IMG/VR virus record: IMGVR_UViG_3300007722_000005
Coordinates: 1-64,000 of that record
DNA from: a virus
Reading direction: 5' to 3' (one strand)
Length of the DNA stretch: 64,000 nt
Shown piece by piece: positions 4,719 to 26,641 of the stretch. The position numbers were made by a program, and so were the translations under genes. Each line of letters starts with the position of its first letter. The first letter of the stretch is position 1. Under the pieces are notes generated by a model that did not search any database, had not been told where the DNA came from, and saw nothing but the letters and a program-made list of their open reading frames with translations.

Positions 4719-4961
4719 TTAGCCTGTAGATGTTGTATAATCCCACACTATGTACGTACCATATTCAGGATGTCCGTGAATCCGCATCAGATCACCGTAT
4801 GTATCAAACACTGAGACGCTCCGAATGGCGGTCAACCACTGGATGACACATTTTCCTGTGTCGAATACTACCCCTTGAAATTGAGGTTGATCTGGAGCGT
4901 TCTTCTGATCAGCAGTGTGCGACTCAGGAACGAGTGGGCGATATGCAGTGAATGTTTTCAT
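4719..4961 (-). CDS. unrecognised 80-aa protein
   Basis: Start overlaps the stop of the RNA ligase gene by four bases (ATGA-type coupling). The C-terminal half (FDTGKCVIQWLTAIRSVSVFDTYGDLMRIHG, shown here in part) reads like a compact beta-rich domain seen in many phage genomes next to nucleotide-handling genes. Function unknown. Confidence 0.6.
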   Translation of the reverse strand: MKTFTAYRPLVPESHTADQKNAPDQPQFQGVVFDTGKCVIQWLTAIRSVSVFDTYGDLMRIHGHPEYGTYIVWDYTTSTG

Positions 4962-6121
4962 TTAGATACAGTAAGTAAGTAATTGTTGTTGATAATTTTC
5001 CACGATAGTGGTTGTTTCGTTCCTCTATCATACCACTTTGTTTGTTTCAAGACAACACCTTCACGAATAGTATGCCGTAGGCTCGGGCCATCAGCGAGTT
5101 CGAAAGCTTTTTCAAGAACTATGTCTCGATTTGGCATCTCCCCACAAAGAGAACTCAACGGAAAGTCGTTGTGTAGCACAGGGATGTGCTCAATGATGTT
5201 CTGGTCACAATGCTGCAACAAAGCCTCAACAAAATGACGGCGGGCCTGTGGAAGGAGGTAGTCCATTGTGTCAATATTGTACACGTCGTAAATGAAGATC
5301 TTCAACCGATCGAGCCCTTCGTGATTACCTTCAACACCAGGCCCCATCAGCTCCCCCTGAATCGCGACGTTGACACAATATGGTTGCTCACCGTCCTGGT
5401 AATCAGGTGAGATCTGTTTGTTGTAGCAGTGTTTGCGGAGAGCGTCGAATATCTTTGAGTCTATTGCGGTCTTCACGTAACAGCTGCCGGCGACGTTTCC
5501 GTCAATAACCAACTCTTGATTTCTCGAGCAGACACCAATACTACCATTATGGTAATATATTGTGATGCTACGCCCCTCAAGTTTTGTTGTCACTTCGTAT
5601 TGGATACGATGTGGAAAACCAATAGCATCATCGATCAGATATCCAGTGATGTTCTGAACGCGCTCTTGGTCTGTCTTCGGAATGAAGTCTGGGAACGATC
5701 CTTTTGTCTCACCCATTCCTGTCGCGACAGGCTCCCACTTCTGAATGTTCAACCATTCAGAAGCGTCTTCACCCTCTACCAAAGCCTCTACCAAAGGAAT
5801 CCAGCATCCCGATTGTTCAATACAACTCGCAACAGATAGAATGAGGCCTTGCGAAATCTGTCCGCGCAGTTTGATTGTTTTCAACTTTGCTCCAGGAATA
5901 CCGTTGTACTCCTTCGGCACTGCTCCCTTCGAAAGGAACGGAGCTATTGTATGAGGAATCCAGCTGTCAATCTCGCAATAGACGATTTCATCTCCGACAT
6001 TGAATTCACCTTTCTTGACGACAGACTGCCATCCGTCGATGATCGCAAGCTCAATCAGGTCGGCGCCTTCGATTGGACGGAGGTCGGCAATCTTACGAAT
6101 TGTTGCTAGTTTTCTTTCCAT
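4958..6121 (-). CDS. RNA ligase, Rnl5/DRB0094-like
   Basis: Start MERKLATIRKI at 6121 follows AGAG; upstream in-frame codons lack a ribosome binding site. The N-terminal 100 residues form the OB-like domain seen in Deinococcus Rnl (GADLIELAIIDGWQSVVKKG, GDEIVYCEID). The adenylation motif I KLEGRS lies near residue 180, with downstream nucleotidyltransferase motifs (SRNQEL, NVAIQGELMG, EGVVLK). It should join RNA ends through an enzyme-AMP intermediate. In a phage carrying 40 tRNAs the likely task is repair of tRNAs cut by host anticodon nucleases (inference by analogy with T4). Confidence 0.85.
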   Translation of the reverse strand: MERKLATIRKIADLRPIEGADLIELAIIDGWQSVVKKGEFNVGDEIVYCEIDSWIPHTIAPFLSKGAVPKEYNGIPGAKLKTIKLRGQISQGLILSVASCIEQSGCWIPLVEALVEGEDASEWLNIQKWEPVATGMGETKGSFPDFIPKTDQERVQNITGYLIDDAIGFPHRIQYEVTTKLEGRSITIYYHNGSIGVCSRNQELVIDGNVAGSCYVKTAIDSKIFDALRKHCYNKQISPDYQDGEQPYCVNVAIQGELMGPGVEGNHEGLDRLKIFIYDVYNIDTMDYLLPQARRHFVEALLQHCDQNIIEHIPVLHNDFPLSSLCGEMPNRDIVLEKAFELADGPSLRHTIREGVVLKQTKWYDRGTKQPLSWKIINNNYLLTVSK

Positions 6122-6213
6122 TATCGGTTCTCTTTGATTTCTGTTATGAATGATTCCGTGTCGATGGGAGGCGAACGTCTTTCGGTTCAAGAAACTTGGG
6201 TTGGGTCATATAG

Positions 6214-6537
6214 TTACCTTCTCATTTTTGAAATGTCTTCTGCTTGTTGCTTCGAGAACACAGGAACAGCATTCGACTTGTGCATCACAGCAATACCGAT
6301 TATTGCAGTGCCGGTATAGACAGGGATTGGTGTTTTTGGTGCAACGTGATCGTTCGACTCAATTGAACGGATCTTTTTGAAGTCTTCCGCACCAGGCCGA
6401 ATGAAAGTATCGGGCTTTGTCCGCGTCATGATTTTGAATTTGCTCTTCGGAACGTATTGTGATGTTCGGATCTTTTTTTCCTGATCGCGTTGCTTTCGAG
6501 TGCGCGGCGATTTTTGGTTTGTGTAAAGTATTAACAT
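6214..6537 (-). CDS. conserved phage protein of unknown function
   Basis: A 107-residue basic protein starting MLILYTNQKSPRTRK. Its start touches the stop of the gene at 6537. Central segment FIRPGAEDFKKIRSIES. The N-terminal YTNQKSPR motif resembles small uncharacterised proteins of other T4-like phages, but no activity is known. Confidence 0.6.
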   Translation of the reverse strand: MLILYTNQKSPRTRKQRDQEKKIRTSQYVPKSKFKIMTRTKPDTFIRPGAEDFKKIRSIESNDHVAPKTPIPVYTGTAIIGIAVMHKSNAVPVFSKQQAEDISKMRR

Positions 6538-7957: not shown

Positions 7958-8235
7958 AATATATCTTCTCCGTCATCTAGATCATTATTTAACTTTTCTT
8001 GCAGTGTTTTGAATGTTGTGGGGTGCATTACGAAAGCGCTTTCTGCTATAACATATACATTAGGGTCAGGATATGGCTCCTGCACAAATTTGTGGCTCCG
8101 CCAAGGTGTCCAAGAAAGCAGCTGCTCTTTCCATGAGCGGCTAACTTTCACCTCCTTATACTTAACAAGGTTTGGATTGGTTGTTACTGGTAGACCATTA
8201 AGAAACACTGTTTGCCCTTTCACGGATCTCACCAA
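7954..8235 (-). CDS. conserved phage protein of unknown function
   Basis: The frame overlaps the end of the NAMPT gene; GTG codons at 8235 or 8226 (the latter behind GGTGAG) are candidate starts, so the N-terminus is uncertain. The conserved part is LVKYKEVKVSRSWKEQLLSW and YVIAESAFVMHPTTFKTLQEKL, characteristic of a small uncharacterised protein in many T4-like phages. The stop overlaps the deaminase start by four bases. Confidence 0.6.
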   Translation of the reverse strand: MVRSVKGQTVFLNGLPVTTNPNLVKYKEVKVSRSWKEQLLSWTPWRSHKFVQEPYPDPNVYVIAESAFVMHPTTFKTLQEKLNNDLDDGEDIL

Positions 8236-9577
8236 ACGTCCAACGTTTGGTTATTACCCCATTCTCATACACAGTTTGCAGCGCATCCGACTTACCAGGA
8301 ACGAACGGCCCCGAGGTGTAGTTGCCATCAATATCTTTGAACAATGTGACGCGGCCTTTCATAGAGCGCTTACCAGCGTCAGTGACAGGATCTTTGTACA
8401 CATCACGCCACTGGTTGTTTACTTGAATCGCAGAACACTTCATTGCAAATTTCTGAGTGTCGCGGTCAATTTGTTGCAACAGAGCACCACCCATACCAAA
8501 AGCAACGTTGTCGGCACTGAGACCCATTGAAGTGATCTTTTCGAGTATCGATCGAATAGTGTCTTCGTTAATACCATCACCTTGAATAACTCGTACATTG
8601 TTCAGTACTCGGTATCCTTTTGAGTTTGTTTGTGTTCCATATGCATCAGCCAGTAATGCCAGGCAATCGGCGACGACAGTGGTAGGATCACCCGAGTCTG
8701 GACGAATGACAACCGTAGCGCCAGAATCGATAACTTCCTGCTTCAGAGTGCGTCCCCAGTGATTCTCAACCGCTTGATAGATGTTGTAGCTATCAGATAC
8801 AACAGCAAGAACGCTACCAGGCTTTGCAAATTGCTGCAGCATGTTACGATACGCTTGTACTTCGTTCTCACGACCCCACGAAGTAATTGTGCTGTGTTCT
8901 GCTGCAGGAATACTGAACGACGGCTTCTTTGCTCCGTAATATTTTGAAGCATACAGAGCACCGGTAACGTTGTCTGATCCCATAAACCCAGTAGCAAGGT
9001 GAGCGGAACCACCAATACCTGCCGATTCAAACGAACTAACACCACGTGCACCGAAATCGTGCAGTTTGAAATCGAGTCCCCCTACATTGCCAGTCTTTTC
9101 CAGATACTGTTTGATCAGCCGGCGAATTGACAGACTATTTGTTGCCACGGTTGTTCCATACCACGTTGCTCGGAGAATTGCAGTTTCCAACCATGTAGTT
9201 GCCCACGCAAATTCTTGGTCTGTGTTCTCGACAGTGACCAGCACATTATTAACTGGGACAACAGACCCCTCAGGGGCAGCTCGAATGCGGACTGGCATGA
9301 ACCCGCTGTGCTTGATCAGCATGCGCAGCCAACCTTGTTTGTTGAATGGTTCGCCATGATCATTCCAAAATTCGGCGGCTTCATCAATGTCACGTTTTGT
9401 GAACGGAGTCTGCAGCACATCCTGCAAGTAAATCTGCAGACCGTACATCATTGTCCATGGGTATTTTCCACCTCGAGATTCAACGTACGAAAATACATTC
9501 TGAGTGCCAGGGGGATACTGCAGCCACATTGGCGACTTATAAGAGTCAACGTTCAGTGCTATGTTTTTAATGTTCAT
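8198..9577 (-). CDS. nadV: nicotinamide phosphoribosyltransferase (NAMPT)
   Basis: A 459-residue enzyme matching full-length NAMPT, which joins nicotinamide and PRPP to give NMN. Visible signatures: LHDFGARGVSSFESAGIGG, the AEHSTITSWG segment with the catalytic His, VIRPDSGDP, and FGMGGALLQQIDRD. Phages such as KVP40 carry nadV with a bifunctional NMN adenylyltransferase-Nudix gene; here that partner is next upstream (9638-10636). Together they convert nicotinamide to NAD in two steps and could rebuild NAD consumed by host defences (inference from described phage NAD-reconstitution pathways). Confidence 0.95.
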   Translation of the reverse strand: MNIKNIALNVDSYKSPMWLQYPPGTQNVFSYVESRGGKYPWTMMYGLQIYLQDVLQTPFTKRDIDEAAEFWNDHGEPFNKQGWLRMLIKHSGFMPVRIRAAPEGSVVPVNNVLVTVENTDQEFAWATTWLETAILRATWYGTTVATNSLSIRRLIKQYLEKTGNVGGLDFKLHDFGARGVSSFESAGIGGSAHLATGFMGSDNVTGALYASKYYGAKKPSFSIPAAEHSTITSWGRENEVQAYRNMLQQFAKPGSVLAVVSDSYNIYQAVENHWGRTLKQEVIDSGATVVIRPDSGDPTTVVADCLALLADAYGTQTNSKGYRVLNNVRVIQGDGINEDTIRSILEKITSMGLSADNVAFGMGGALLQQIDRDTQKFAMKCSAIQVNNQWRDVYKDPVTDAGKRSMKGRVTLFKDIDGNYTSGPFVPGKSDALQTVYENGVITKRWTFGEIRERANSVS

Positions 9578-9637: not shown

Positions 9638-10636
9638 TCATACGCCCCCAAGCAAATACGTAATAATATCGAAATGATCCTCAAATATTTCTTCAGGATT
9701 CAGATCCGCAATTGGAATCCACATCGCTTTTGCCGCATCATCACCTCCTTTGACTGGTGGCAATTTCCCGTCGGGCAACCGAATCAAAAACGCGTGGGTG
9801 ATCGTTCTACCACGGAGGCTCCGCGTTGGGTGATCAAACACGTACCTATTGACAATACTTCCCTTGAGAACTGGTGCTGGCACCTTGAGACGCGTTTCCT
9901 CACGAAGCTCGCGCAGCATTCCATCTTCAATTCGTTCGGCTTGGTTAACGAATCCACCAGGAAGTGCAAGCAGACCCTCACCAGGTGCAGCACCTCTCAC
10001 AACCATCAAGACGTGACCTGACTGAACTACTACAGCATCAGAGGTTACGAACGTTGGTGCATACGGAGCAGCAAGCCAGGATTTTTTGTACTTCTTGATG
10101 TGCTCGTATTCCCGCGCCAGCTTCAGGTAATCTTCGCCTGCACGGAAGAGACTCAACGCAGCGTTTGTGGTATTCGGTAGTGCACCAGAGTAGAGTTTTG
10201 GGCTGGCACCGGAGAAGTAGAGATCACGTACGCTGGTAGCACTAACGCTATCATCCATCTTGTGATCAATGCGACTCCACTGGGGAAACATTCGCAGATA
10301 GAATGAAGTCTCGTCTTTCTCATGTCCAATCAGCTCAATAATATCGAGTTCGCTGGTATTTTGATTGACAATCTTCTGGACGCCCGCTGCCCATTGTTGA
10401 TCGTTGTAACTGATATCACGCAGAGGTTCAATTACTAGCTTGTCGCCATAAGGATAACAGGCGAGGATCATATTCTTTCTCTCCTGGAACGTCCAGGGAT
10501 TTTTGATGCTCCGCGGCTGATTAGCACTGCCGATGATTATGATGATTTTGTTTGCACCTATCATCGCACTATCAATCAGACGCTTATGCTCTGAGTGGAA
10601 AGGTTGAAATCTACCAATTAAAACTTTGACGCGCAT
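9638..10636 (-). CDS. natV: bifunctional NMN adenylyltransferase-Nudix hydrolase
   Basis: A 332-residue two-domain protein. Residues 1-170 are a NadM-type adenylyltransferase (GRFQPFHSEHKRLID, in which the HxGH motif reads HSEH) with a C-terminal VSATSVRDLY (ISGTxxR-like). Residues about 200-330 are a Nudix domain with the box GGFVNQAERIEDGMLRELREE (G-x5-E-x7-REUxEE). The first domain makes NAD from NMN and ATP; the second hydrolyses ADP-ribose-type substrates. Same architecture as KVP40 NatV. Paired with NAMPT downstream. Confidence 0.93.
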   Translation of the reverse strand: MRVKVLIGRFQPFHSEHKRLIDSAMIGANKIIIIIGSANQPRSIKNPWTFQERKNMILACYPYGDKLVIEPLRDISYNDQQWAAGVQKIVNQNTSELDIIELIGHEKDETSFYLRMFPQWSRIDHKMDDSVSATSVRDLYFSGASPKLYSGALPNTTNAALSLFRAGEDYLKLAREYEHIKKYKKSWLAAPYAPTFVTSDAVVVQSGHVLMVVRGAAPGEGLLALPGGFVNQAERIEDGMLRELREETRLKVPAPVLKGSIVNRYVFDHPTRSLRGRTITHAFLIRLPDGKLPPVKGGDDAAKAMWIPIADLNPEEIFEDHFDIITYLLGGV

Positions 10637-10882: not shown

Positions 10883-11797
10883 TCACTTAAAGTCAAGCAT
10901 TCTTTCTACGGGAACACGGGCTTTTTCAATCACCTCATCAGTCAGGTAATCAATCCGATCACCTATTCCTCTGATAGCAGCTTGCGCCGATTCCAGTGTG
11001 TTCATCTTCATGAACGGACAGGAATTACACTGACATCCTTTGTACGTGGGAGCCTGTCTGATATCCAGATCAGGTCGAGCTTCTCTCATATTGAAGAGCA
11101 AGCCGTCTTCGGTAGCAACGTAGATGATTGCATCGGTATCTGTATTCTTCACCCAGTTCAGCATCTTGTGTGTTGAACCAACTACATCAGCCTGTTTCAG
11201 AACGGAGAGAGGAGATTCAGGATGTGAAAGAAGAATCTTCTTCCTTCCAGGATCCTGCATGAAGGCGATAGCCAGCTCTTCAAGATTGAATTGATCATGT
11301 ACGTCACATACTGCAGACCAAAGAGGTATCTTCCAGTTGTTCGTGTAGTTGAGGTATGCACCCATGTTACGATCGGGAGAGAAGATCACACTCTGACCTT
11401 TATCGTAGATGTGCTTGATGACCTCTTCAACGTTCCTCGAGGTGACAATCCAGTCACTCAGAGCTTTGTGCTCTGCAGATGTGTTGATGTACGCTACGTG
11501 TTGAATATCAGGGTTGCGCGCTCTGTGCATGTAGACCCACGAGCGCAATCCAGTAGTACCTTCGATCTCTGTTTGCTCAACGAGCGAACAAGATGCTGCT
11601 AGAGTCGGAATGATTACTTCGGAATTGGGGTTAAGTATCTTCGCGGTTTCAGCCATGAAGCGAACACCGAGGAAGATAATTTGATCTGCTTTCGCTTCTT
11701 TAGCAGCAAGCGCGAGATCAAGCGAGTCACCGACGTGATCGGCGAGTTTCTGTACTTCTGGAACTGTGTAGTAATGTGCAAGTATGATTTTGCGCAT
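10883..11797 (-). CDS. nadA: quinolinate synthase NadA
   Basis: A 304-residue protein (start MRKIILAHYY at 11797, behind GGGAGGA). Family signatures: ILAHYYTVPEVQKLADHVGD, FLGVRFMAETAKIL, and three candidate 4Fe-4S cysteines at about 70 (AASCSL), 164 (SAVCDVH) and 260 (CNSCPFMKMN). NadA condenses iminoaspartate with dihydroxyacetone phosphate to quinolinate, the second step of de novo NAD synthesis. No nadB or nadC is seen here, so host enzymes would supply substrate and finish the pathway. Its neighbours extend NAD production by salvage. Confidence 0.92.
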   Translation of the reverse strand: MRKIILAHYYTVPEVQKLADHVGDSLDLALAAKEAKADQIIFLGVRFMAETAKILNPNSEVIIPTLAASCSLVEQTEIEGTTGLRSWVYMHRARNPDIQHVAYINTSAEHKALSDWIVTSRNVEEVIKHIYDKGQSVIFSPDRNMGAYLNYTNNWKIPLWSAVCDVHDQFNLEELAIAFMQDPGRKKILLSHPESPLSVLKQADVVGSTHKMLNWVKNTDTDAIIYVATEDGLLFNMREARPDLDIRQAPTYKGCQCNSCPFMKMNTLESAQAAIRGIGDRIDYLTDEVIEKARVPVERMLDFK

Positions 11798-11932
11798 AGG
11801 AAATCCTCCCATGGTTGATAGCTTCCATCTATTTGGTCGCTATATGTACTTATAATAAAGTGGATCGCTTCTTTCGTTTGACCTCGTGTGGTTTTGATGT
11901 ACAGCTGTTAAAATCCTCTGTAATATCGCTAA
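11798..11932. other. short intergenic region
   Basis: No gene seen. A TATAAG-like box occurs on the minus strand near 11855, without a clear -35 partner. Confidence 0.3.
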
Positions 11933-22956: not shown

Positions 22957-22964
22957 TATTTAGG
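22957..22964 (-). promoter_or_regulatory. late-promoter-like sequence
   Basis: Minus strand CCTAAATA followed by CC, about 20 bases before the ATG at 22938; two mismatches from TATAAATA. Confidence 0.4.
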
Positions 22965-23808
22965 TGTTTTTAGTATTCGCTTGTGATCGTTCTGCTGGAG
23001 TTGGGATTCTTGGCCAAGGTTTCTTCTGATCCTTGAGCCGTTTGAATGCCCGCATCAACTTGCCAACGCTCTTACTTTCTGTTATACCACCTTTATCTGC
23101 CTTCGTCCAATGCACATTTCCTGTCCCCTTGCAATAATTGCAATCGTCCTTTGTTTTTGGTTCATTCTTGCATTCGGGACATATCCTGTGATTTGAAGCT
23201 AGTCGTGGCGAGTAAAATACATTATTTGCTTCGATAACACAAACGTCGTACGCTTTTTCAGCGAGGTCGTTTATTTTGTCAGTCTTAACACGCATTATTG
23301 AATTCGTTATTGGACGGTAGTTGTACTTCGAACTCCGGCGGCCAGCGGCAAGGCGGGCGCCTTCTGCTTGTTTGACTCTTGGAAGAAGTCGGTCAGCTAC
23401 GCGATTAATCGCTCCTTGCTTCTTACTAATAATCCTATCGACAACAATCTTGTCTGATGGGCCGAGTTTTTGATAATTTGAACCCAACTTACCAGCATAC
23501 CGGCGGCGCATATAGTTGCGCGCAAGGTTGCGTGTCCTCTTCTTGAGGTTCTTCTTATTTGCAAATCTATTCAGCGCAAGCTGTCTTCCTTTTTTGATCT
23601 TTGGAAGACGGCGGCGAATGCTAATAGCACGCTTACGACGCTCTTGATACGTAAGAACGCGGGACTCTCTTACACCCTTTGTTGGCTCGACGACAACCTC
23701 GTCTCCATCTTTGTTGAGGATAACTTTCTTCTTGCTACCCTTCATTATGATCGGCTTTTCGTCGGGCGACATTTGTTTGTCGGGTGTCATTTCACCAGCT
23801 GGTTTCAT
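22960..23808 (-). CDS. very basic virion-region protein with DnaJ-like zinc motif
   Basis: A 282-residue, strongly basic protein. The middle is an Arg/Lys-rich helix (RRKRAISIRRRLPKIKKGRQ) common in marine T4-like phages. Near the C-terminus CPECKNEPKTKDDCNYCKGTG gives two CxxC pairs like the DnaJ zinc finger. It could bind nucleic acid inside the head; that is inference from charge and from the neighbouring candidate internal proteins. Confidence 0.6.
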   Translation of the reverse strand: MKPAGEMTPDKQMSPDEKPIIMKGSKKKVILNKDGDEVVVEPTKGVRESRVLTYQERRKRAISIRRRLPKIKKGRQLALNRFANKKNLKKRTRNLARNYMRRRYAGKLGSNYQKLGPSDKIVVDRIISKKQGAINRVADRLLPRVKQAEGARLAAGRRSSKYNYRPITNSIMRVKTDKINDLAEKAYDVCVIEANNVFYSPRLASNHRICPECKNEPKTKDDCNYCKGTGNVHWTKADKGGITESKSVGKLMRAFKRLKDQKKPWPRIPTPAERSQANTKNT

Positions 23809-24398
23809 TTTTTAAGGTTCCCTTTTACGTCGTGGAATAGGTCTTTTGCGTGCCCCTCATTCTTCTTCAGCGCAGATGGAAGATTTTTCTTGAACGAGTG
23901 GAAGTCGTTGTTGTGTACGTGGTTCCGCATATCTGTTCCCGATACTCCCTTTGATCGCGCACCAGTATTTACCACATTGATTGATTTGAAAGGTTTTTCG
24001 GTTCCTGGACCGTGGTACTTTTTAATCTTTTCCAATTCTCCAGCGCGGTCTTCTCCACCAGCAAGTGTCAGGTGCCTGTAACCTTGATCGTGAAGATGCT
24101 CAACATGTTGATAGATTGAAGGCCGCTCTTTCGACGACATTGTGATGTTCGTGTTGGGGAATGCGCGCTTCAAATGCTTTTCTTTTTGTTGAGGAGAAAG
24201 AGGGTTCTTTTTCGAATCATGTGAGTGTGAAGCGATAACGAGATGATCAGCCCCTACCTTCTTTGCGTGGGCTTTTAATCCGTTGATATTTGCTTCATGC
24301 CCTGATGTAGGAGGGTTCATACGGCCGTAGAGAACAGCAACGTGCTTGTCGTTGTCGTCGCTCGACTCTCGTATGTATTGGAGGAATCTTTTAATCAT
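23805..24398 (-). CDS. nucleotidylyltransferase-fold protein with capsid-targeting-like leader
   Basis: A 197-residue protein. Residues 20-34 read VAVLYGRMNPPTSGH, the HxGH-type nucleotide-binding motif (TSGH), and near residue 150 GVSGTDMR matches the ISGTxxR motif of cytidylyl-/adenylyltransferases. The N-terminus MIKRFLQYIRES fits a T4 capsid-targeting leader with cleavage after I-R-E. Substrate unknown; it may be packaged and injected. It forms a coupled set with the next two genes, which have similar leaders. Confidence 0.7.
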   Translation of the reverse strand: MIKRFLQYIRESSDDNDKHVAVLYGRMNPPTSGHEANINGLKAHAKKVGADHLVIASHSHDSKKNPLSPQQKEKHLKRAFPNTNITMSSKERPSIYQHVEHLHDQGYRHLTLAGGEDRAGELEKIKKYHGPGTEKPFKSINVVNTGARSKGVSGTDMRNHVHNNDFHSFKKNLPSALKKNEGHAKDLFHDVKGNLKK

Positions 24399-25534
24399 TT
24401 TTGTGGGTACTTTGGGTTGTTAAGAAGAGCGTGAGAGACTTCTTTTGGCACTAATTTGCCAACCGGCCGATGCAATCCTAACCGGTCTTTCTTCAAGAGG
24501 ACAATCCCCTCACCTGGTGAGGGGTTGCCGTCAATCGAAGTTGTAACGTCTGGGTGGTGCACTCCTTTTAAAAGGTGCTCAGTAGCTTGCCCCAAATGGT
24601 GTTGAATGACGAGCGATCTATTAAAATGTTCCGCGTGTTTGTCAACGTGACCCGAATGAGAAGCAAACGTGCTGAGTTTTCTTTGTTGCCCAGCAACGGT
24701 AGAAAGTTTGCTGGCCTCTTTTTTACCAACAGCAGAGAGATGTTTTTTGTATCCCTCAGTAGATGGATCACCTCCTTCCCTTGTTGTATTGTTCAGGTAG
24801 GACGTCAAGTGCTTTGTATGATCTGGTGTTAAGTGGTTTGTTGTGTGTTTGCTTAGAAGCTCCTTTGCAGACGAAAGATGTTTTTCTACAGCTTCGCGAT
24901 CCTTTGGTTTATACGTGCTTGGGTCAGGTTTGTATTCTGATTGTGTTGTGAAAATATCTTTGTGGCGCTTGGTTGCTTCTGGTGTGATAGCGTGCGCAAT
25001 CCCCTGTGTTATTTCAGTATGAGCTGCAAGTCCTACCTTTGCTTTTGTATCCATCCCATATTCAATACGATTAGGGGTAGCTGATGCTACTCCTTTTGAT
25101 AGCGTAGGCTTTTCGTGTTCATTATATAGTAGGTCTCCTTGGACTGTGTGCCCAGGATTAACGAGCTTGTGACCATGCGACAAAACGTTTTTTAACGTTG
25201 CTGCGTATTGAGGGGCATGCCCGAAATGATGATCAACTTCTTCTGGAGAGCGCGCTTTGACACCACGTGAGAATCGATGTTTATCAGAAACAAAAGGACC
25301 TTGATGGTCGTGGCCAATGACAACCGAAGCGCCGCCGTCGACCTTTAGTTGTCCTCGAACCCCACTCGGTTCTCCCATTCTGTGCTTATGGAAATCCTGC
25401 ATGAGGCTCAGAGCATGATTGCCACCCGAATCAGGCAGTTCGTGTGGGAGATCTTTCACGTGCGTCAAATGCCCGAGTAGCTCAGCATCGATCGACGTCT
25501 TGGCTTCTGTTAGAAAATTGTTGAACTTAATCAT
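24395..25534 (-). CDS. candidate injected protein with polynucleotide-ligase-like motifs
   Basis: A 379-residue protein. The leader MIKFNNFLTEA resembles T4 internal-protein leaders (cleavage after L-T-E). The body shows a possible covalent nucleotidyltransferase series: K64-VDGG (motif I KxDG), VSDKHRFSRG, GDLLY at 133-137 (motif III-like), EGIVLLKK at 342-349 (motif IV) and GKLVPK from about 359 (motif V). That order and spacing are those of DNA/RNA ligases, although the protein is His-rich and otherwise unlike known ligases. Uncharacterised relatives probably exist in other marine phages. Confidence 0.6.
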   Translation of the reverse strand: MIKFNNFLTEAKTSIDAELLGHLTHVKDLPHELPDSGGNHALSLMQDFHKHRMGEPSGVRGQLKVDGGASVVIGHDHQGPFVSDKHRFSRGVKARSPEEVDHHFGHAPQYAATLKNVLSHGHKLVNPGHTVQGDLLYNEHEKPTLSKGVASATPNRIEYGMDTKAKVGLAAHTEITQGIAHAITPEATKRHKDIFTTQSEYKPDPSTYKPKDREAVEKHLSSAKELLSKHTTNHLTPDHTKHLTSYLNNTTREGGDPSTEGYKKHLSAVGKKEASKLSTVAGQQRKLSTFASHSGHVDKHAEHFNRSLVIQHHLGQATEHLLKGVHHPDVTTSIDGNPSPGEGIVLLKKDRLGLHRPVGKLVPKEVSHALLNNPKYPQK

Positions 25535-26574
25535 TTTGTTGCCTTTGTTAGACTTGCCCCTGGCTTTGATCCGTTGTATGGAGTGTGTGGTGATGAGCCC
25601 AAACTCTTTGATCTAAACTCGAGCGAAGCTAATTTATGTGTTGCTCCTTTAGAATCAGTGCCGTGAAAGTGTATTCTATTTTTGTCAACGGTCGTGTGCA
25701 CTTTATTCATTGAATCAACGAATTTGTTTGCCTTCGAGTCGTAATCAGAAATATGCGTCTTACCTTTTTCGTGATGAACTTTGAGAGTTTCAATTGATTT
25801 ATTGCCGCTACCAACAAGCGATTTAACAGCCTTCTTCATATTAGGGGTGCTCGTTTTGCTAAAATGTTCGTGGTGATGATTAGCCAGCGCGACACCACGA
25901 TCGCGGGCGATACTTTTCGCTTGGTTGTGCACTTCTATGTCAGCGGGCTTTGTAGACGACCTCAAGACCCGGAAGTGGTCTGCTTTCGCTTTGCTCGTCA
26001 TACCACTAAAACCTGGCTTTGATTTCTCCATATGCTTGTCTAGTTTTGCGTTAAACGTTTTAATTGTGCTCACTCCATCAGATCCACCGTGCATCTTAGC
26101 TAACGTCTTGTGCCCCGGTGTCATCGTCGAGTGGCTTTCTTTTTTACTGCTGACGCCAACATGCTTAACATCGCCGGTTTTTGGATGTTTAAGTGACACG
26201 ACGTAATCGGCGTTATCGTCAACCGTTTGTTGCTTTTTTGAATTGTGGGCATCGTGGAATTTTTGGATATCTTTTTTTTCAGAAGTCCAGTGTACTTTGC
26301 TGATTTTGTATTCAGGATGTGTTTTTTTCAAATGGTCTTTTAATGCTCCAGCTGCGTGAGTTCCAGCAGCTTTTGATTCAATATGATCTTGGGGAGCCAT
26401 TGACTTTTGAACATGCACAGCAGCTTCCGAAGGAGATTTTCCTTCCTTTGTACGGAAATTATCAGGAGGTGATCCTGTCAGCGCATGCATCGTGTGTAGT
26501 TCGAACGCAACGCCACCATGCGCGCCTTTTGCACCTTGTTTACTCTCAACCAAAAAAGATCTGAAGTTTATCAT
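25531..26574 (-). CDS. candidate injected head protein, possible nuclease fold
   Basis: A 347-residue His/Lys/Ser-rich protein. Leader MINFRSFLVES would be cut after L-V-E. Residues 121-145 (NADYVVSLKH, VGVSSKKES) put an Asp about 20 residues before SSKK, loosely like the D-(E/S)xK core of PD-(D/E)xK nucleases; this is weak. It is the first gene behind an exact late promoter and is followed by two further leader-bearing genes. Confidence 0.55.
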   Translation of the reverse strand: MINFRSFLVESKQGAKGAHGGVAFELHTMHALTGSPPDNFRTKEGKSPSEAAVHVQKSMAPQDHIESKAAGTHAAGALKDHLKKTHPEYKISKVHWTSEKKDIQKFHDAHNSKKQQTVDDNADYVVSLKHPKTGDVKHVGVSSKKESHSTMTPGHKTLAKMHGGSDGVSTIKTFNAKLDKHMEKSKPGFSGMTSKAKADHFRVLRSSTKPADIEVHNQAKSIARDRGVALANHHHEHFSKTSTPNMKKAVKSLVGSGNKSIETLKVHHEKGKTHISDYDSKANKFVDSMNKVHTTVDKNRIHFHGTDSKGATHKLASLEFRSKSLGSSPHTPYNGSKPGASLTKATK

Positions 26575-26598: not shown

Positions 26599-26608
26599 AG
26601 TATTTATA
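26599..26608 (-). promoter_or_regulatory. T4-type late promoter
   Basis: Exact TATAAATACT on the minus strand, 25 bases before the ATG at 26574. It should switch on the three leader-bearing genes and downstream virion genes late in infection. Confidence 0.85.
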
Positions 26609-26610
26609 AA

Positions 26611-26641
26611 ATAAAAAAAGCCCGCGGTTGCGGGCTTTTAA
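26611..26641 (-). terminator. bidirectional rho-independent terminator
   Basis: GCCCGC and GCGGGC form a stem with a GGTT-type loop, flanked by A and T runs on both sides. Separates the early-type gene at 26652 from the late promoter. Confidence 0.8.

Follow-up and report, generated by a model that had tools for sequence, protein, structure and literature searches.

The window analysed here is a 64-kb stretch of a virus record (the contig) totalling 92,205 bases and carrying 153 ORFs. Three minus-strand ORFs with ATG starts and consecutive 4-nt overlaps encode, in the order of transcription, proteins of 347, 379 and 197 aa (Table 1). The first-pass annotation had described T4-like leaders ending in (I/L)-x-E on all three, and each was found where it had been placed; the residue that follows the terminal E is S in the 347-aa protein, A in the 379-aa protein and S in the 197-aa protein. 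The same annotation had regarded the proteins as otherwise unrelated, and an all-against-all BLAST comparison of the bodies alone assigned them to three different families. The protein encoded by the next gene downstream contains a very basic region, which by eye resembles small basic leader-bearing proteins located beside the cassette in Melnitz and C48C1. A nearest-phage DNA search returned a tRNA as its sole match, and thus no close described relative.

Table 1. Features at the leader-gene locus, with coordinates in the window
Feature	Position	Strand	Basis
Terminator-like hairpin GCCCGC-AACC-GCGGGC, then T run	26613-26635	-	Sequence read
T4-type late promoter TATAAATA, 26 bp upstream of the ATG of leader gene 1	26601-26608	-	Sequence match
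Leader gene 1, 347 aa, possible PD-(D/E)XK nuclease (E25, D123, S142, K144)	25531-26574	-	ORF, 23-member aligned family, AlphaFold2
Capsid-targeting-type leader MINFRSFLVE, predicted cleavage before S11	26545-26574	-	Motif match
Leader gene 2, 379 aa, DUF6267 (PF19782), nucleotidyltransferase/ligase-like fold	24395-25534	-	Pfam, alignment, AlphaFold2, Foldseek
Capsid-targeting-type leader MIKFNNFLTE, predicted cleavage before A11	25505-25534	-	Motif match, DUF6267 conservation
Leader gene 3, 197 aa, cytidylyltransferase/NMNAT-like HIGH-superfamily nucleotidyltransferase	23805-24398	-	phrog_3041, alignment
Capsid-targeting-type leader MIKRFLQYIRE, predicted cleavage before S12	24366-24398	-	Motif match
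Downstream gene, 282 aa, without leader, overlaps leader gene 3	22960-23808	-	phrog_23027, E 1.7e-12

The terminator-like hairpin would close the preceding transcription unit immediately ahead of the late promoter. Copies of the promoter octamer were also counted in the 19.5-kb head/tail-gene stretch of the contig (63.5-83 kb), where six were present against 0.69 expected, and a gp55-type late sigma factor gene was located at contig positions 63574-64188. The placement of the three genes in one late operon, as first annotated, is supported by the promoter upstream of the overlapping ORFs and by the gp55-type gene, and the predicted expression is late and from this one promoter. The gp21-type (S77) protease that the first-pass annotation had proposed seeking elsewhere in the genome is encoded outside the window at contig positions 69741-70184; the portal gp20, scaffold gp22 and capsid gp23 genes are likewise carried by the contig outside the window. 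The phage's own capsid protein reads L-S-E followed by G near the position where T4 gp23 has L-T-E followed by A. A gp21-type protease was found in 16 of the 19 records searched (T4 and relatives), and the remaining three are contigs of 83-110 kb.

Predicted activities of the protein bodies

The 197-aa protein matched phrog_3041 (E 1.7e-44), and its GRMNPPTSGH and SGTDMR motifs, of the GxFxPxHxGH and ISSTxxR types, were invariant or nearly so in a four-way alignment; its score against Pfam CTP_transf_like fell under the family cut-off. Homologues are present in 545 phage records. By its motifs the protein is a nucleotidyltransferase of the HIGH superfamily, NMNAT/cytidylyltransferase-like, in keeping with the nucleotidylyltransferase label originally given to it. 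At three related loci (L008-L010), the nucleotidyltransferase is fused to a P-loop domain (VTGGPGSGKD) in a NadR-like arrangement; the short form is the one present in the window. Three neighbouring NAD genes lie on the minus strand of the window, encoding a nicotinamide phosphoribosyltransferase (8198-9577), a NadM-like adenylyltransferase with a Nudix domain (9638-10636) and the quinolinate synthase NadA (10883-11812). The phage therefore owns a dedicated NMNAT in addition to the leader-bearing one. The encoding of NadA by a phage looks unusual.

The 379-aa protein belongs to DUF6267 (Pfam E 1.3e-29), in which K64-x-D66-G67, E342-G343-x-V345 and K360, residues that resemble ligase motifs I, IV and V, were conserved in an alignment of 37 sequences. 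Its AlphaFold2 model (pLDDT 91.7) was compared with the PDB using Foldseek, and the top matches were mostly DNA/RNA ligases, with a best E of 0.024 and none below 0.001. The modelled structure suggests a ligase-like fold of the covalent nucleotidyltransferase type, and the earlier label of ligase-like stands on the KxDG and EG motifs and on these ligase matches, none of them significant. In several contigs (such as L051, L053, L090 and L101), two ORFs together make up DUF6267, a leader-bearing one of 144-148 aa and a second of 237-251 aa; a frameshift, the remains of an intron or a sequencing error may account for this. The window also encodes an RNA ligase with an N-terminal PHA02142 OB-fold domain (4958-6190, minus strand).

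The 347-aa protein, originally listed as unknown, was placed in a family whose conserved residues are PD-(D/E)XK-like. No relatives were obtained by tblastn or by a single-sequence scan of the loci, and the family surfaced only when neighbour genes at the DUF6267 and nucleotidyltransferase loci were clustered. Among the 23 aligned members, the four residues given in Table 1 are invariant or nearly so, and the strand order fits PD-(D/E)XK. The AlphaFold2 model (pLDDT 78, with low confidence for residues 1-16) is structurally similar to uncharacterised cyanophage proteins. A fold search of the PDB with this model gave nothing significant, the best nuclease match being HinP1I (E 0.22), and PDB sequence searches gave nothing useful. 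The model and the conserved residues are consistent with a possible PD-(D/E)XK nuclease. Profile comparison found no homology between the 347-aa protein and the genes that occupy similar positions in S-SM1, Melnitz, HTVC008M and S-SCSM1.

The N-terminal leader in the window and in relatives

The leader was defined strictly as M-x(2,3)-[FY]-xx-[FY]-[ILV]-x-E. In relatives, the DUF6267 and nucleotidyltransferase genes occur together in Melnitz, C48C1 and S-SM1 (in S-SM1 the DUF6267 homology was detected by profile). A leader was present on 76/90 distinct full-length DUF6267 proteins by the strict definition and on 82/90 by a relaxed one, and on 15/82 and 55/82 nucleotidyltransferases, respectively; it is common but not universal, and some members have none. 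It also occurs in relatives on other unrelated genes, including those for HAD-like (by motif) and DUF6321 proteins. At their five free positions, the leaders of unrelated genes were 25.6% alike within a genome versus 20.5% between genomes (permutation p 0.001), a weak effect among contigs that are related.

Two individual loci are recorded here. In locus L005 (OQ984149, CDS0089, 5001-6410), the annotated start is too late and the leader is absent from the annotated protein; an upstream in-frame start gives MIKNFSQYLLEE. Mis-set starts may hide the leader in databases. In the Methylophilales phage Melnitz (MZ577097, gp2; locus L177, 82-1131), a RimK-like ATP-grasp protein located ~11 kb from the main cassette carries the leader MTQKFSQFITEE.

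Conservation by position was determined for 37 DUF6267 homologues, which had been collected via body similarity without a leader criterion, the start codon being leader-guided in a few. Entropy at leader positions 4, 7, 8 and 10 was 0.97, 0.95, 0.70 and 0.18 bits, versus 2.5-3.1 bits at positions 2, 3, 5, 6 and 9. Mutagenesis of T4 IPIII assigned targeting mainly to residues 4 and 7 and processing to residues 8 and 10, with ten residues being sufficient (PMC9026906). Judged by sequence conservation, the DUF6267 leader matches this map position by position. All three window leaders have the form of about ten residues with residues 4, 7, 8 and 10, shifted in MIKRFLQYIRE by one additional residue before the first aromatic. 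Leader residues had pLDDT below 50 in the AlphaFold2 models (1-12 in DUF6267 and 1-16 in the 347-aa protein), and the bodies fold without them.

Among the relatives, the residue after the leader E is E in 53/147 and Q in 11/147, which differs from the examined T4 sites; cleavage may therefore fail in some of them. This atypical residue would suit an uncut scaffold-binding or core-docking helix on proteins that serve head assembly rather than being injected as cargo, as would the modelling of the leader as a short N-terminal helix and the published link of T4 IPIII to head assembly as well (PMC9026906). Such a helix is nevertheless considered unlikely, since the two IPIII processing positions are the most conserved of the leader, the window proteins continue with S, A and S, and the bodies look like enzymes, with conservation at residues of catalytic type.

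Published proteomics bears on homologues of one of the three proteins only, the nucleotidyltransferase. Homologues were detected by mass spectrometry in purified virions of S-SM1 (S-SM1_190; PMC3037559), S-CREM2 (gp154; PMC10665884) and S-SCSM1 (ORF91; PMC9602691). All three carry a leader (MKKFSAFLNE in S-SM1_190, MKSFLQFLKE in ORF91 and MKNFSSFLTE in gp154, each followed by A), of which no mention was seen in the accessible text of these papers. The authors of the S-SCSM1 (PMC9602691) and S-CREM2 (PMC10665884) studies caution that the proteins were perhaps co-purified as carry-over. In S-SCSM1, the adjoining ORFs 89, 90, 92 and 93 are marked as virion proteins and do not have the strict leader; the leader is therefore not the sole route into the particle. 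Amphipathic N-terminal helices are able to bind membranes, and the leader might accordingly have some capsid-independent N-terminal role, for instance in membrane association or translation control. This is highly improbable given that a signal peptide would be longer and less polar than the leader, which moreover agrees with the T4 targeting/processing map and is borne by homologues detected in virions.

The frequency of the strict pattern was compared with that in shuffled and internal sequence. It occurred in 3/153 contig ORFs, all adjacent, whereas shuffled N-termini gave a mean of 0.032 per genome, and its core was found in 4/20,694 internal windows of the contig. Across 156 loci, it was present at 211/1588 N-termini versus 5/7619 internal Met positions, counts that are non-independent because the loci are related to one another. 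Five further T4-like genomes gave 2-5 matches each versus 0.02-0.08 expected. A blind scan of T4 with the same pattern returned ipII, ipIII and one artefact; genomes were scanned in pieces, and the match at 114096-114440 was discarded as the C-terminal part of uvsW truncated at a piece edge. A chance resemblance, or one due to local composition, to which ten residues rich in the common K, F, L and E might seem open, has a practically negligible probability, being contradicted by these statistics, by the strong N-terminal restriction and by the recurrence of the leader in many contigs on unrelated bodies.

Interpretation and comparison with known systems

The three are most likely internal head proteins addressed by their leaders, with trimming by gp21 and subsequent injection both probable. 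The parts of this reading differ in strength: the predicted leader-directed packaging is well supported on comparative grounds, cleavage of the leaders in the phage is likely, and injection followed by an early function is inferred. The proteins would be made late from one promoter, each with an N-terminal address of 10-11 residues (M-x-x-[F/Y]-x-x-[F/Y]-[L/I]-x-E). By analogy with T4 IPII and IPIII, binding of the address to the prohead core (scaffold gp22) would lead to enclosure of the cargo during head assembly. Cleavage after the leader E by a gp21-type protease would follow, leaving the mature enzyme inside the head, to exit with the DNA at infection. The delivered enzymes may act early in nucleic-acid or NAD metabolism or in counter-defence.

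A broader proposal is put forward tentatively. The T4 capsid-targeting code may be a general, swappable tag in aquatic T4-like phages, gained and lost by unrelated enzymes (nuclease-, ligase-, NMNAT- and HAD-like), which could thus be injected as a ready-made kit for nucleic-acid/NAD repair or counter-defence, active before phage gene expression. The leader would also allow the head cargo of uncultured T4-like phages to be predicted from sequence, and DUF6267 and the nuclease-like family are concrete candidates for injected enzymes. Several groups saw an NMNAT-like enzyme in cyanophage virions and left its deliberate carriage undecided, a question to which a conserved capsid-targeting leader offers a specific answer.

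The leader mechanism as such has been described in T4. Its deployment on diverse enzymes in aquatic T4-like phages seems new and undescribed in the accessible part of the open literature on "capsid targeting sequence" and cyanophage proteomics. The leader of T4 IPII and IPIII (MKTYQEFIAE, followed by A) is like those of the window in length, in [F/Y]4, [F/Y]7, [I/L]8 and E10 and in the small residue that comes next, and both genomes encode a gp21-type protease. IPII and IPIII are proteins of 100 and 193 aa that are not known enzymes, whereas the window cargo consists of predicted enzymes of 197-379 aa encoded in one overlapping gene run, and no relation was seen between the T4 and window bodies. 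T4 Alt differs from the window proteins in both its enzyme and its propeptide. As a head-packaged ADP-ribosyltransferase, Alt is likewise an enzyme of the head core, and acts on the host (PMC9026906). Polyvalent or virion-packaged conflict proteins (PMC5512222, PMC9503650) are large and multidomain, or have had their packaging inferred from gene context, and no comparable short cleavable address was seen in the accessible text of those papers; the idea shared with the present proteins is that of virion-carried, early-acting enzymes, including NAD-related ones. The cyanophage virion cytidylyltransferase/NMNAT proteins (T4-GC190; S-SM1_190, S-SCSM1 ORF91 and S-CREM2 gp154), the latter three of which are longer (286-409 aa) than the 197-aa protein of the window, resemble it in having a homologous catalytic domain and a leader of the same type.
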